A stretch of DNA of 46,989 nucleotides, taken from contig LDJB01000002.1 in assembly GCA_001028815.1 (NCBI GenBank), positions 606,322-653,310 of the forward strand. The letters run 5' to 3'. Shown one piece after another: positions 3,188-46,739 of this stretch; position 1 is the stretch's first letter; every line of letters starts with the position of its first letter. The position numbers and the translations under genes were made by a program. This stretch comes from Peptococcaceae bacterium 1109. Its GTDB lineage: Bacteria > Bacillota > Limnochordia > Darwinibacteriales > Darwinibacteriaceae. The notes beneath the pieces were generated by a model that did not search any database, had not been told where the DNA came from, and was given only the letters and a program-made list of their open reading frames with translations.

Positions 3188-4609
3188 ATGCTCTTTTATC
3201 GTTCTAGCGCTGAGTGGTTGTACGGGTGGAGGCTCCAAGGTCAGCTATAAGTTGACTGTTTCGGTTGACGGCAACGGCACTGTTGAGCCTTTTGTTGGCC
3301 CACGTGAGTATAGTAGTCCTACAATCGTGACCCTAACAGCGAAGCCTGATGAGAACTCCGAGTTTGAACGCTGGATCGGGGACGTCTCCAGTCCCGACAC
3401 GCCGGAAACGGAAGTTGTGGTAGACCGCGATAAGGCCGTTGTAGCGGCTTTTGTCGGTTTGCTAGGGGCAGAAATTCCCGTTAAAACAGGAGATGCTATC
3501 CGGTTCACGAACGGTGTTGTTGTGGATCTGCAAAACGTTGATGTGCCAGCGGAAACAACCGTTATCGTCACGGATGTCGCGGAGGAAATTGGGCTCCCCG
3601 AAGAACTGCAGCTGGCGGGATCCGCAGTTGAGATTGATTTCGAATCCGCCGGCGAGCTCGACTTCTCCGAGGGGGTGGTTCTGAGGCTGCCTGTTGATCC
3701 GGGGGCGGACCCTGATCAAATTGGTGTGTTTCACCTCAACGGAACAGAATGGCACTACTTGCCCACTACAGTAGAGGACGGATCGGCAGTGGCCACAGCC
3801 ACCAGCTTCTCCACTTTTGCGGTGTTGGCGGCAGAAACTTCCGCACCGGTGGAGTCGTCAGTTGTGGGGTTTCGCGTTGAGCAAGGCGAAGAGATAGTAC
3901 TCTCCGCAAGCCCCGCGGCGCAAATCTGGTACAGCACAACGGGCCCAGATTATCCAGGAGATTACCAGCTGTACGAGCCACCACTCGCGATGCCGGGCGG
4001 GTATTTTGAGTTTTACGCTGTGGCAGTGGAGCCGAACAAGCGGCCCAGCGAGGCCACGAAGTTCAGATACGTGGATGCCGATTATACGGTGGTTATCGTG
4101 AAGGACGAGGCTGGGGAGCCAATGAACGGTGTTGGGGTATGGTTCATCGAAAGATCGGAACGTATCTACACCGACGAGGAAGGTTTTGCAGCCCAGAGGA
4201 TAATCGGAGAAGAAACAATAATCATACCCTTCTTGGAAAATCACGTCTTTGAGCCATCGGCGACAATCGGAGGAAGGGGCGGCACGCTTACGTATGTGGG
4301 CAAGCCTAGTGTAGAACAGGTCATCAGAACAGACTTGGCTTTTAACCCCGTGGAATTCCAAGATCCAGGCAAGCTTAACCCCTTTGTTTCGCCTAGAATC
4401 AGAGAAGCCATGAACAGGCTGATCGACAGGCATCACCTAGCCAGCATTGCTGGTGAGTTCGTCTACCCAATTTGGACATTCCTGACGCAGGACAGCTTTG
4501 ACTACGGCTTCATGGAAGATGTTCTTGCTCGGCTGGAAACGAGCTACGCTTATGACCTCGATGGTGCTCGGCAGATCATTGAAGACGAAATGAAGAAACT
4601 AGGTGTTTT
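3188..4609 (+). pseudogene. Lipoprotein with Big-like repeat domains fused to part of a peptide ABC substrate-binding domain (5' half, split by IS)
   Basis: A lipobox (LALSGC, Cys codon 3219-3221) has no in-frame start. ATG 3188 would reach it only if one T of the run 3194-3197 were absent, so the 5' end appears frameshifted. The frame then runs through a divergent InlB-type repeat (KLTVSVDGNGTV ... FERWIGDV), an unassigned beta domain, a chitobiase C-terminal-like segment (WYSTTGPDYPG) and a carboxypeptidase-regulatory-like segment. It then switches to a family-5 substrate-binding region (IREAMNRLIDRHHLASIAG). The N-lobe that normally precedes this segment is missing. The IS interrupts the frame after EDEMKKLG. 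The remainder resumes at 6247. Confidence 0.7.
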
Positions 4610-30044: not shown

Positions 30045-30581
30045 TCAGCTGAATCGCTTTAGGTATCCGTTTTTCTTGAGCGCGATGACAATGGCGGGAA
30101 TGGCAATGAGCTGTAAGATGATGCCTGGCACTGCATTGATGAACGCGCCGGACATAAACAGCTGCCAGGAAAATGCTTGGCCGCTCAAACCATAGAGGGA
30201 TAGGCTTGCCAGTCCCCAGACAGCTCTTCCGCCCAGCATGGCCAGGACGAGGCTGAGGTAAATGGTGAAACTGTTCTTGGGCAGGTGGCGATATAGGTAT
30301 CCTGTGAGGAAACCGTAAGCACCTAATTCAAAGGTCATAGCTACCGCTGTGGGGAAGAGCGGCGGCATGCCCAAAAGGTAGCTTCTAAATAGGGGAAGAA
30401 TTAGCCCCACGGCCAAGCCGTATGGCCCGCCAACGATGAACCCGCACAGCAAGACGGGGATGTGCATTGGGAGCAGCATGCGCCCAATCGTGGGGATCTG
30501 GCCTGTGAAATAGGGTAAGATCATTCCCAAGGCAATGAAAAATGCTGCCAAAACCATGCGCCGGATTTCCTTTGGCTTCAT
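30045..30581 (-). CDS. ECF transporter S component
   Basis: This 178-residue membrane protein has about six hydrophobic helices and the S-component hallmarks: an N-terminal AAFFIALGMILP helix with small residues facing EcfT, and MHIPVLLCGFIVGGPYGLAVG in the middle. ATG 30581 has AAAGGAG at 8 nt. Such proteins bind a vitamin or similar micronutrient and share an EcfA-EcfA'-EcfT energising module encoded elsewhere. No module genes are present here, so it is a solitary group II S component. The substrate is unclear. Its leader contains an attenuator-like terminator. Confidence 0.82.
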   Translation of the reverse strand: MKPKEIRRMVLAAFFIALGMILPYFTGQIPTIGRMLLPMHIPVLLCGFIVGGPYGLAVGLILPLFRSYLLGMPPLFPTAVAMTFELGAYGFLTGYLYRHLPKNSFTIYLSLVLAMLGGRAVWGLASLSLYGLSGQAFSWQLFMSGAFINAVPGIILQLIAIPAIVIALKKNGYLKRFS

Positions 30582-30605
30582 CTGCAGACTCCTTTCTGAG
30601 CGAAT

Positions 30606-30657
30606 AAAAAACCACAACGATATAAAACCCCTTTCCAGGGATTGTATACCTTCGTGG
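30606..30657 (-). promoter_or_regulatory. Attenuator-like leader of the ECF S-component gene
   Basis: Read on the minus strand, CCAC (30657-30654) with the following GA can pair with TCGTTGTGG (30620-30612), followed directly by T6 (30611-30606). Two small hairpins fit inside (ATACC/GGTAT and CCC/GGG). The terminator lies 25 bp before the gene start and after a plausible promoter (TTGAAG, 16 bp, TACTCT). A leader terminator before a micronutrient transporter suggests a metabolite-sensing RNA. I cannot match it to a known riboswitch class. Confidence 0.5.
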
Positions 30658-30788: not shown

Positions 30789-30817
30789 TTGATATTCCAG
30801 CTAGACTGTGCTATCAT
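30789..30817 (+). promoter_or_regulatory. Promoter of the c-di-AMP riboswitch operon
   Basis: -35 TTGATA (30789-30794) and -10 TATCAT (30812-30817) have exact 17-bp spacing. The predicted start lies a few bases before the riboswitch P1 stem. Confidence 0.7.
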
Positions 30818-30827
30818 ACCTCTAGAT

Positions 30828-30940
30828 TGTCTCCGAATGCTGCATAGTAGTGGGGGACCCACCTTTTTTGGGGTGAATCTTGTTCTGGCAAGAGGGGCGA
30901 CTTGGGCGTCCTAACCCGACAGCTAACCCCATAGGAGTAC
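30828..30940 (+). ncRNA. ydaO/yuaA (c-di-AMP) riboswitch
   Basis: The conserved blocks of this class appear in order: GTGGGGGACCCA (30850-30861), GGGGTGAATC (30870-30879), GGGGCGAC (30894-30901), then CCCGACAGCTAACCCC (30915-30930). P1 closes with CTCC (30831-30834) and GGAG (30934-30937). It is followed by an intrinsic terminator, so c-di-AMP binding probably promotes termination, as in most members. It controls a cation antiporter and a PII-like protein, fitting the role of c-di-AMP in potassium and osmotic control. Confidence 0.93.
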
Positions 30941-30943
30941 ACC

Positions 30944-30988
30944 AAGCGTGTGACATGACTCATTTGAGTCCCGTTATGCGCTTTTTTT
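30944..30988 (+). terminator. Riboswitch expression-platform terminator
   Basis: AAGCG (30944-30948) pairs with CGCTT (30979-30983), and the inner stem GACTC/GAGTC closes an ATTT loop. The middle pairs with a few wobbles, and T7 (30982-30988) follows. It sits between the aptamer and the antiporter start. Confidence 0.8.
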
Positions 30989-31043
30989 CTTGCCTTAGTT
31001 TACATGGGGGAAAGCGCGACAGAAAAGGTGGGGGGTTGTTATT

Positions 31044-32264
31044 ATGAATGTTTTGCTCAAGCTCGGAGTCATCTTAATTGTTGGCCTTTTGGGCGGAAAA
31101 ATCGCACGCCTGTTCAAACTGCCCAATGTTTCTGGTTACTTAGTAGCGGGTTTGCTTTTGGGGACATCGTTCTTCAAAATCGTCAGCCCCGCAGATGTGG
31201 ATGCCTTCGCTGTAATCAGTGAAGTTGCATTGGCAATTATTGCCTTCAGCATTGGCAGTGAGTTCCTGCTGAAAGATATGCGCAAGCTCGGCAAGTCGAT
31301 TGTGGTGATCACTCTCCTCGAGGTCATTGGGGCAGTGGCAGTGGTATTCTCCATAATGTATTTCGGCTTCAAACAGCCCTTTGCCTTCAGTATAGTGATC
31401 GCGTCCATGTCAGCGGCCACCGCTCCCGCGGCTACATTGCTTGTGATGCGCCAGTATCGTGCCCGTGGCCCATTGACCAGTACCGTTCTGCCTGTGGTGG
31501 CCTTGGATGACGTCTTTGGGATCATGGCCTTTGGGATTGCTATGTCTGTTGCCCGCCTTTCCATGGGCAGCAACCTCTCGCTCTTACAGATGCTAGTTCA
31601 GCCTGGGGTTGAAATCTTTGGCTCATTGGCCTTAGGCGCGGTCCTTGGGTTAGGGCTCTGGTGGTTATCCAGGGGAGCGGCTGATCGTGATGAGCTGCAG
31701 GGCATCTCACTAGCAGCTATTGCGGTGGCCACAGGGCTGGCGAACCATTTCCACTTGTCGCCCCTTTTGACTTGCATTACCATGGGGACTGCGCTGGTTA
31801 ACCTGCAGCCCAACTCTGCCAGGGTGTTCGGCTCAGTAAATGATTTTGCCGCTCCCGTATACGTGCTGTTCTTTGCCCTCGCAGGAGCCAGCCTGGATCT
31901 GGGTATCCTGATGAAGGTAGGAGTCATGGGCGTGTTTTATATCTTCGCTCGGGCTGCAGGCAAGATGATCGGGGCTGCGGCAGGAGCGAAAATGGTCAAC
32001 GCACATCCAAACGTCACGAAATACCTCGGCCTGGCACTGCTCCCCCAAGGCGGAATTTCCATCGGCTTGTCTGTCTTAGTCAGGCAGCTTCTGCCAGAAT
32101 ATGCCCCGGCCATTACTACCATCATCATGTTTAGCGTCCTGATTTACGAAGTGACCGGGCCAATCTTCGCAAAGATTGCCATTGCAAAAGCAGGGGAAAT
32201 CAACGGCATGGATAAAGCCGGTGATCATCAAGCCGTTCCTGTTGTAGAGGAACTGGTATTCTAA
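31044..32264 (+). CDS. CPA2-type cation:proton antiporter
   Basis: This 406-residue protein has about 12 transmembrane helices and no cytoplasmic RCK domain. GKIARLFKLPNVSGYLVAGLLLG is the typical first hairpin of Kef/Na-H exchanger proteins, VVALDDVFGIMAFG the helix carrying the transport Asp pair, and LALLPQGGISIGL a conserved CPA2 element. ATG 31044 follows GGTGGGG. Expression is under the c-di-AMP riboswitch. Monovalent cation (K+ or Na+) exchange with H+ is the family function. K+ is favoured by the riboswitch context, but ion and direction are not shown by sequence. Confidence 0.9.
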   Translation: MNVLLKLGVILIVGLLGGKIARLFKLPNVSGYLVAGLLLGTSFFKIVSPADVDAFAVISEVALAIIAFSIGSEFLLKDMRKLGKSIVVITLLEVIGAVAVVFSIMYFGFKQPFAFSIVIASMSAATAPAATLLVMRQYRARGPLTSTVLPVVALDDVFGIMAFGIAMSVARLSMGSNLSLLQMLVQPGVEIFGSLALGAVLGLGLWWLSRGAADRDELQGISLAAIAVATGLANHFHLSPLLTCITMGTALVNLQPNSARVFGSVNDFAAPVYVLFFALAGASLDLGILMKVGVMGVFYIFARAAGKMIGAAAGAKMVNAHPNVTKYLGLALLPQGGISIGLSVLVRQLLPEYAPAITTIIMFSVLIYEVTGPIFAKIAIAKAGEINGMDKAGDHQAVPVVEELVF

Positions 32265-32290
32265 GACTACCCAGAAAGAAGGTATGAGCT

Positions 32291-32641
32291 GTGTACGCTT
32301 TGTTTGTGGTGCTCAACCAAACAGATTATCTCGATGATCTCCTAGAGAACTTCGTGGAGGCGGGGGTTAAGGGAGCTACAGTCCTCGACAGCCAGGGTAT
32401 GGCCAGCGCAATTGTGAACAGCGGGGAGCAGCGCATTCCCCTGTTCGGCTCCCTCAAAACCTTGATGGAAGGGGCACGCCCCTACAACAAGACCGTTTTC
32501 ACCGTCTTAGAAAGTGAAGCAATGGTAGAAAAAGCTGTTGCTGCCGTTCAAGAAGCCCTAAAGGATCTTCCTCCAACGGGATTGGGCTTCATGTTCACTG
32601 TGCCAGTAGCCAAGACATATGCCTTAAGGCCAGAGAGCTAG
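32291..32641 (+). CDS. PII-like signalling protein
   Basis: This 116-residue protein has the PII ferredoxin-like beta-alpha-beta arrangement (YALFVVLNQTDYLDDLLENF, GVKGATVLDSQGM, then the second repeat TVFTVLESEAMVEKAVAAVQ). The T-loop region is short and lacks the uridylylated Tyr motif of GlnB. GTG 32291 has GAAGG at 8 nt. It lies 26 bp after the antiporter in the same riboswitch-controlled operon. PII-like proteins bound to transporters are known elsewhere (for example SbtB, and PstA, which binds c-di-AMP). It may therefore regulate the antiporter; that is inference. Confidence 0.75.
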   Translation: MYALFVVLNQTDYLDDLLENFVEAGVKGATVLDSQGMASAIVNSGEQRIPLFGSLKTLMEGARPYNKTVFTVLESEAMVEKAVAAVQEALKDLPPTGLGFMFTVPVAKTYALRPES

Positions 32642-32704
32642 AGGGGAGCATTTTCCTGCGCAATCGGGAAACCATATAAGCAAAAACTGTGGAGGAGGTT
32701 GCGC

Positions 32705-32920
32705 ATGGAAGTTCACTGTACCGTCAGCAACTGTCAGTGGTGGGACGACAATTACTGTGCTGCTCGATCAATCTTGATTACCACCGATTCGGTTGGGGAG
32801 GAACTCCCAGAATCCTACGACTACCAACAGACCCAAAACATCGTCAACATGTTTGGGGAAACACCGGCAGATTCGTGTATGGCGACTTGCTGCAAGACGT
32901 TCACTGAACGGAGAGACTAA
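32705..32920 (+). CDS. DUF1540 small Cys-rich protein
   Basis: This 71-residue protein has the DUF1540 motif (HCTVSNCQWWDDNYCAA) and a C-terminal CMATCCKTF segment, giving Cys groups that suit metal binding. ATG 32705 follows GGAGGAGG at 5-6 nt. Third gene after the c-di-AMP riboswitch, with its stop about 55 bp before the terminator. DUF1540 proteins are common in spore-forming Bacillota, and their function is unknown. Confidence 0.82.
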   Translation: MEVHCTVSNCQWWDDNYCAARSILITTDSVGEELPESYDYQQTQNIVNMFGETPADSCMATCCKTFTERRD

Positions 32921-32975: not shown

Positions 32976-33006
32976 AAAAGGGCAGCGCGCTGCTCTGCCC
33001 TTTTTT
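32976..33006. terminator. Bidirectional intrinsic terminator
   Basis: AAAAGGGCAG (32976-32985) pairs with CTGCCCTTTTTT (32995-33006) across a 9-nt loop. T runs occur on both strands. It ends the antiporter operon and the convergent ABC exporter operon. Confidence 0.9.
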
Positions 33007-43569: not shown

Positions 43570-43815
43570 TAACAGGCACAAAACCCGTTCGCCTTAGAGA
43601 CGAACGGGTCGCGGTACCACTCTAATTAACACGGCTGCCCTGTGCAACTGTGTTCACTCGAAACCTTTAACGGGGTTACCGGTTGGAGTTACTTCCACTT
43701 CACCCCAACAGCTCCTGGGCGAGTTCAGGCTCAGCTGCTGCCTCGCACCATCCGGCAGCTCTCTGGGAAAATTGGCCCTACTACTCCCATTCAAAGCTTG
43801 TAGCAGATGAATCTT
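43570..43815 (-). ncRNA. T-box leader of leuS (Leu CUC specifier)
   Basis: On the minus strand the T-box core AGTGGTACCGCG lies at 43621-43610, followed by the terminator stem ACCCGTTCGTC/GGCGAACGGGT and TTTTG. Stem I shows AGAGAGCTGCC and TGGTGCGA blocks and, after them, a CTC triplet at 43723-43721 as the likely Leu specifier. Uncharged tRNA-Leu would stabilise the antiterminator and raise leuS expression. Confidence 0.92.
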
Positions 43816-46663: not shown

Positions 46664-46739
46664 GGCCCCGTAGCTCAGGGGATAGAGCGGTGGTTTCCTA
46701 AACCATGTGCCGCAGGTTCGATTCCTGCCGGGGCCGCCA
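46664..46739 (+). tRNA. tRNA-Arg (anticodon CCU)
   Basis: A complete cloverleaf: acceptor GGCCCCG/CGGGGCC, D-arm with GCTCAGGGGATAGAGC, anticodon stem GTGGT/ACCAT with loop TTCCTAA (anticodon CCT at 46697-46699), T-arm GCAGGTTCGATTCCTGC, and an encoded CCA at 46737-46739. It reads AGG codons. Minor Arg tRNA genes are frequent attachment sites for integrative elements, and an integrase-like gene begins 141 bp downstream. Confidence 0.97.

Follow-up and report, generated by a model that had tools for sequence, protein, structure and literature searches.

The window, the whole 46,989-nucleotide stretch of DNA analyzed, contains a c-di-AMP riboswitch aptamer followed on the same strand by an intrinsic terminator and by genes for a CPA2-type cation/proton antiporter, a PII-like protein, and a DUF1540 protein (Table 1). 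The aptamer matches RF00379 end to end, at 83.8 bits compared to a gathering score of 38 (E value of 3.6e-18, cmscan), and the terminator hairpin sits between it and the antiporter gene, which agrees with the original prediction of a ydaO-class aptamer and terminator ahead of an antiporter. The predicted order of the three genes also holds, and their products score above the cutoffs of their Pfam families (PF00999, 115.1 bits compared to 26.2; PF00543, 28.8 bits compared to 25; PF07561, 52.8 bits compared to 22.1). The promoter-like site begins at the start coordinate of the original prediction; the region contains 3 such sites, with 1.9 expected from shuffled sequences, so that the site taken alone is weak evidence. 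An ECF transporter S component gene is divergent from the riboswitch, and no further Rfam family was found in the intergenic region that the two share. Elsewhere, the window contains a full-length T-box leader and a tRNA gene.

Table 1. Features at and around the riboswitch locus, in window positions
Feature	Position	Strand	Basis or remark
ECF transporter S component	30045-30617	minus	PF12822
Promoter-like site TTGATA-17-TATCAT, TG before second hexamer	30789-30817	plus	consensus match 10/12
c-di-AMP riboswitch aptamer, RF00379	30821-30953	plus	cmscan, model 1-134 of 134
Pseudoknot loop strand CUUGG	30901-30905	plus	pairs with 30942-30946
Pseudoknot tail strand CCAAG	30942-30946	plus	last three bases double as base of terminator left arm
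Intrinsic terminator	30944-30988	plus	hairpin 30944-30983, then T-run to 30988
CPA2-type cation/proton antiporter, 406 aa	31044-32264	plus	PF00999, ALDD motif (D155, D156), K307
PII-like protein, 116 aa, GTG start	32291-32641	plus	PF00543
DUF1540 protein	32705-32920	plus	PF07561
Terminator-like hairpin 3' of DUF1540	32979-33006	plus	
T-box leader, full length	43593-43803	minus
tRNA gene	46664-46736	plus

The source genome encodes two diadenylate cyclases, two PstA proteins, and one TrkH, with TrkA_C domains in two genes. It has one other c-di-AMP riboswitch, an apparently orphan copy (L037, 8277-8408, minus strand; G000:C3:214276-214407) that keeps a CUUGGA/UCCAAG pseudoknot, lacks a terminator, and is followed by a 59-aa open reading frame without an assigned function; a LysM gene is convergent. 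A further P-II (PF00543) match, at G000:C1:263691-263978, has a single TAA stop in frame.

The antiporter and PII-like genes form a conserved pair

Relatives of the PII-like protein were found at 34 loci, 31 of them close. The antiporter gene is directly upstream of the PII-like gene in 29 of the 31 close relatives, with a c-di-AMP riboswitch ahead of the antiporter in 20 and none in 7 that have the pair; L008 and L025, where the contig ends before the leader, are outside these riboswitch counts. Thus, the arrangement of riboswitch, antiporter, and PII-like gene is far beyond chance. The exceptions to adjacency are L009 (positions 3776-4345), which has an intact PII-like gene and an antiporter cut to a 32-residue remnant by gene decay or misassembly, and L024 (positions 3513-4342), where the PII-like gene directly follows a PTS EIIA-type gene with no antiporter within the stretch examined. 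In a phylum-wide profile search, the PII-like family was present in 76 of 398 genomes, and the antiporter adjoined the PII-like gene at all 29 further loci inspected (27 antiporters identified by tblastn, L168 and L169 by open reading frame inspection only). The pair occurs in either gene order, and also in remote families within the phylum; it is a real, widespread module. Such strong conservation is the reverse of the result named beforehand as a refutation, relatives whose antiporters all lack a neighboring PII-like gene. Of 20 relatives whose entire genome was scanned, 16 have no RF00379 match apart from the antiporter leader, and near three of the antiporters that lack the riboswitch the search returned no other Rfam family.

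DUF1540 does not share this conservation. Its gene, the sole copy found in the source genome, is probably co-transcribed with the pair in the window, but DUF1540 was not found at any of the relatives' antiporter/PII-like loci examined, which rules it out as a system component. It looks like an incidental neighbor, so the proposal of a third gene under the riboswitch stands for the window and does not extend to the conserved module.

The antiporter has an ion-site motif resembling that of sodium exchangers

The best NCBIfam match of the antiporter, the single PF00999 match in the source genome, is the CPA2 family TIGR00932, at 42.9 bits compared to a curated cutoff of 238.3. The window protein and its riboswitch-linked relatives have the DD motif of the ion site and the conserved lysine, as in NapA. 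Since the K+-transporting KefC has QD at this site and the DD motif resembles that of Na+/H+ rather than K+/H+ exchangers (PMC11150392), Na+ appears at least as likely as K+ to be the transported ion.

In a clade without the riboswitch (L003 to L007, L020, and L033), the second Asp of the motif is Gly (ALDG or ALNG) in all six aligned proteins, as judged by eye against the strictly conserved ion-binding Asp of NapA and KefC with L007 left out. A TTGACA...TATATT-like promoter lies right before the antiporter gene in this clade, and riboswitch loss and ion-site change go together there.

The PII-like protein belongs to a family distinct from PstA

All 31 members of the PII-like family match PF00543, with E values up to 0.01. 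The predicted model of the window protein has the PII ferredoxin-like fold (pLDDT of 77.7), with 1hwu as the best-matching chain (Z score of 13.4 over 85 residues). The canonical ATP-phosphate residues of GlnB and GlnK are absent, the B-loop GDGK being replaced by GFMF and the C-loop RxR by a YPL-type stretch.

The gene adjacency, together with the precedents of AmtB-GlnK and of SbtA-SbtB, a transporter with a PII-superfamily partner (PMC8352866), suggests that the PII-like protein may gate the antiporter. We consider it improbable that it does so as a c-di-AMP receptor like PstA, which would make its gating a direct c-di-AMP response. The predicted PII fold, the co-transcription under a c-di-AMP riboswitch, and the conserved GAT and SQGM stretches where PstA has ATK and GGF (by eye) are consistent with such a role, but none of the 31 family members matches PF06153 (PstA/CdAMP_rec), the protein aligns with the two PstA proteins of the source genome at an hhalign probability of 2%, these PstA proteins are encoded separately, and the pair is also found without a c-di-AMP riboswitch in front. 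By sequence, then, an identity as PstA is rejected. It is also doubtful that the two genes are merely co-regulated, with the PII-like protein acting on some other target and making no contact with the antiporter. A PII-like gene beside a PTS EIIA-type gene (L024) and one that remains where the antiporter has decayed (L009) would fit this idea, but the two genes adjoin one another at nearly every locus, in either order and across distant families, which argues against it.

The terminator begins within the aptamer pseudoknot

Crystal structures of c-di-AMP aptamers contain a pseudoknot in which, here, the CCAAG tail strand immediately 3' of P1 pairs with CUUGG in an aptamer hairpin loop; PMC9337991 also mentions "the aptamer pseudoknot". 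This pseudoknot is paired in 27 of 27 antiporter leaders, with every cell of the alignment a standard pair and 13 compensatory cells in which both bases change, from GC to AU. P1 and the loop-tail pseudoknot together have 100% of cells paired, with covariation support.

In the window, the left arm of the terminator (AAGCG...) begins within the tail strand. We found the same overlap in 18 of 20 scorable antiporter leaders compared to 3 of 45 controls, which are other c-di-AMP riboswitches taken mostly from 249 genomes of the phylum (Fisher P of 4.5e-11, inflated by the common ancestry of the leaders). Terminator scoring handled the pseudoknot wrongly in L026 and L100 and gave no score for L099, so these were judged by eye; the veg-linked leader L100 was scored as apart but seems by eye to overlap. 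Two of the three overlapping controls precede SulP genes, and the third is doubtful. The left arm starts 16 to 18 nt past CAGCTAA in most antiporter leaders compared to 26 to 98 nt in most controls, and six additional antiporter leaders have a CCAAGCG...GCGC layout. In L022 and L023, the terminator falls slightly outside the pseudoknot; in L029, none is nearby. The genomes of L022 and L023 also carry trkA-linked riboswitches (L043 and L046). The overlap layout is not confined to antiporters, since it also precedes SulP transporters (L117 and L118), a Veg-like DUF1021 gene (L140), and a short open reading frame (L139).

Most leaders have an overlap of 3 nt, and L013 and L016 have one of 5 nt. 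Blocking it costs 0.8 to 4.8 kcal/mol in most leaders and up to about 10 in L013; in the window, the hairpin changes from -19.7 to -14.9 kcal/mol when the pseudoknot tail bases are blocked, and a shortened hairpin beside the T-run can still form. Separate covariation of the terminator base was not above that of shuffles, so it is energy and conservation, not covariation, that support the terminator.

The expression platform has the layout expected of an ON switch

For a switch to be OFF, the terminator must be kept from forming while no ligand is bound. An OFF-type layout has a terminator apart from the aptamer and an upstream antiterminator, and the window leader shows neither. In the antiporter leaders, the mean probability that the terminator left arm pairs upstream is 0.33, which is 0.08 below that of shuffled arms, while in the controls it is 0.60, or 0.14 above shuffled arms (P of 1.6e-5, overstated because the leaders are related). 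By this measure, no upstream antiterminator pairing is evident in the antiporter leaders, unlike in the controls. Pairing of GUUAU in the 5' flank with AUAAC in the left arm was considered as an antiterminator and dropped, since by eye it is not conserved. The trkA riboswitches L043 and L046 have the classical OFF layout, with a tail complementary to their own terminator arm. In several cell wall riboswitches (L062, L067, and L068), the pseudoknot tail resembles a ribosome-binding site (by eye), so that one and the same sequestration of the tail would turn expression OFF at cell wall genes and ON at antiporters.

Without upstream pairing of the left arm, termination looks like the default state of the antiporter leaders, and the pseudoknot, once stabilized by ligand, would compete for the terminator base. 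The fluoride riboswitch, an ON switch, works through the same kind of overlap (PMC11077080), and PMC9337991 assigned OFF control to a c-di-AMP riboswitch with a separate terminator and ON control to a Na+ riboswitch with an overlapping one. ON control would also agree with the rule in Bacillus subtilis that c-di-AMP stimulates cation exporters and inhibits importers (PMC7857571). We therefore read the "apparent OFF switch" of the original prediction differently and put at slightly better than even the chance that c-di-AMP turns the antiporter ON, as would fit a cation exporter; with the terminator overlapping the pseudoknot and no antiterminator evident, the paradox of ion direction raised there would be removed. 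We infer this sign rather than read it directly, because the overlap is 3 nt and a shortened hairpin could still form.

The opposite sign, a classical OFF switch in which c-di-AMP promotes termination and a Na+/H+ antiporter is needed at low c-di-AMP (under salt stress or K+ limitation) alongside K+ uptake, seems to us rather unlikely. All c-di-AMP riboswitches that we found in the literature examined are OFF switches (PMC9960051, PMC6488665, PMC9337991), a terminator remains when the 3-nt overlap is lost, and a Na+ extruder, as the DD motif would allow, could suit OFF control. However, we found no antiterminator that would allow read-through without ligand, the layout is unlike that of the control riboswitches, and, given the overlap, bound ligand would weaken rather than strengthen the terminator.

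Discussion

If c-di-AMP does turn the antiporter ON, the terminator hairpin (AAGCG...CGCUU, then a U-run) would stop transcription ahead of the antiporter gene in the absence of ligand. When c-di-AMP is high, the aptamer, presumably bound by it, would keep the CUUGG/CCAAG pseudoknot and so remove the AAG base from the terminator left arm, weakening or delaying the hairpin. RNA polymerase would then read through into the antiporter and PII-like genes, and the antiporter would take in H+ for an exported monovalent cation (K+ and/or Na+) at times when c-di-AMP signals a high cellular cation level. At the protein level, the PII-like protein would gate the antiporter on sensing a small ligand, with an adenine nucleotide the likeliest candidate.

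The components resemble those of several known systems. The B. subtilis ydaO (kimA) and Bacillus thuringiensis kdpFABC riboswitches have the same RF00379 aptamer, matched here over its full length, and an ion transporter as the target, but the terminators of the ydaO/yuaA riboswitches are further downstream, whereas here the terminator begins within the pseudoknot tail without an evident antiterminator, and the gene controlled encodes a cation antiporter instead of a K+ importer. The fluoride (crcB) riboswitch shares the overlap of pseudoknot and terminator in its expression platform, with another aptamer and ligand and an overlap that is a six-pair pseudoknot tract. KhtTU and CpaA are K+ exporters stimulated by c-di-AMP at the protein level through RCK_C domains; they too are CPA-type exchangers connected with c-di-AMP and have a regulatory part of nucleotide type, but here regulation would fall to a separate PII-like protein, and the link to c-di-AMP that we observe is an RNA. 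SbtA-SbtB and AmtB-GlnK likewise pair a membrane transporter with a PII-superfamily protein, which in those systems is a gating trimer, but their transporter families are unrelated to this one and gating is suggested here by gene adjacency alone. PstA/DarA (PF06153) shares a PII-type fold and a c-di-AMP-producing host with the PII-like protein and belongs to another sequence family.

Taken as a whole, these observations could describe a two-tier circuit of reversed polarity, in which c-di-AMP switches on a cation exporter through a pseudoknot-overlapping terminator and a distinct PII-like family, in the usual place of the RCK domain, senses an adenine nucleotide (possibly c-di-AMP) to gate the exporter; we offer this complete scheme tentatively and give it a low probability. 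Its parts are of known kinds, and the gene association may have been tabulated earlier; what is new is that the expression platform looks wired in the opposite sense and that its target is the antiporter/PII-like module. c-di-AMP riboswitches have so far been described as OFF switches, chiefly of importers and cell wall genes. If the antiporter leaders do act as ON switches, a phylogenetically broad set of them would have the reverse wiring, the position of the terminator relative to the pseudoknot would match the aptamer to the sign of its target (importers off, exporters on), and the leaders would provide a natural ON-type c-di-AMP sensor. The widespread pairing of a CPA2 antiporter with a PII-like protein is a candidate transporter-gating system.
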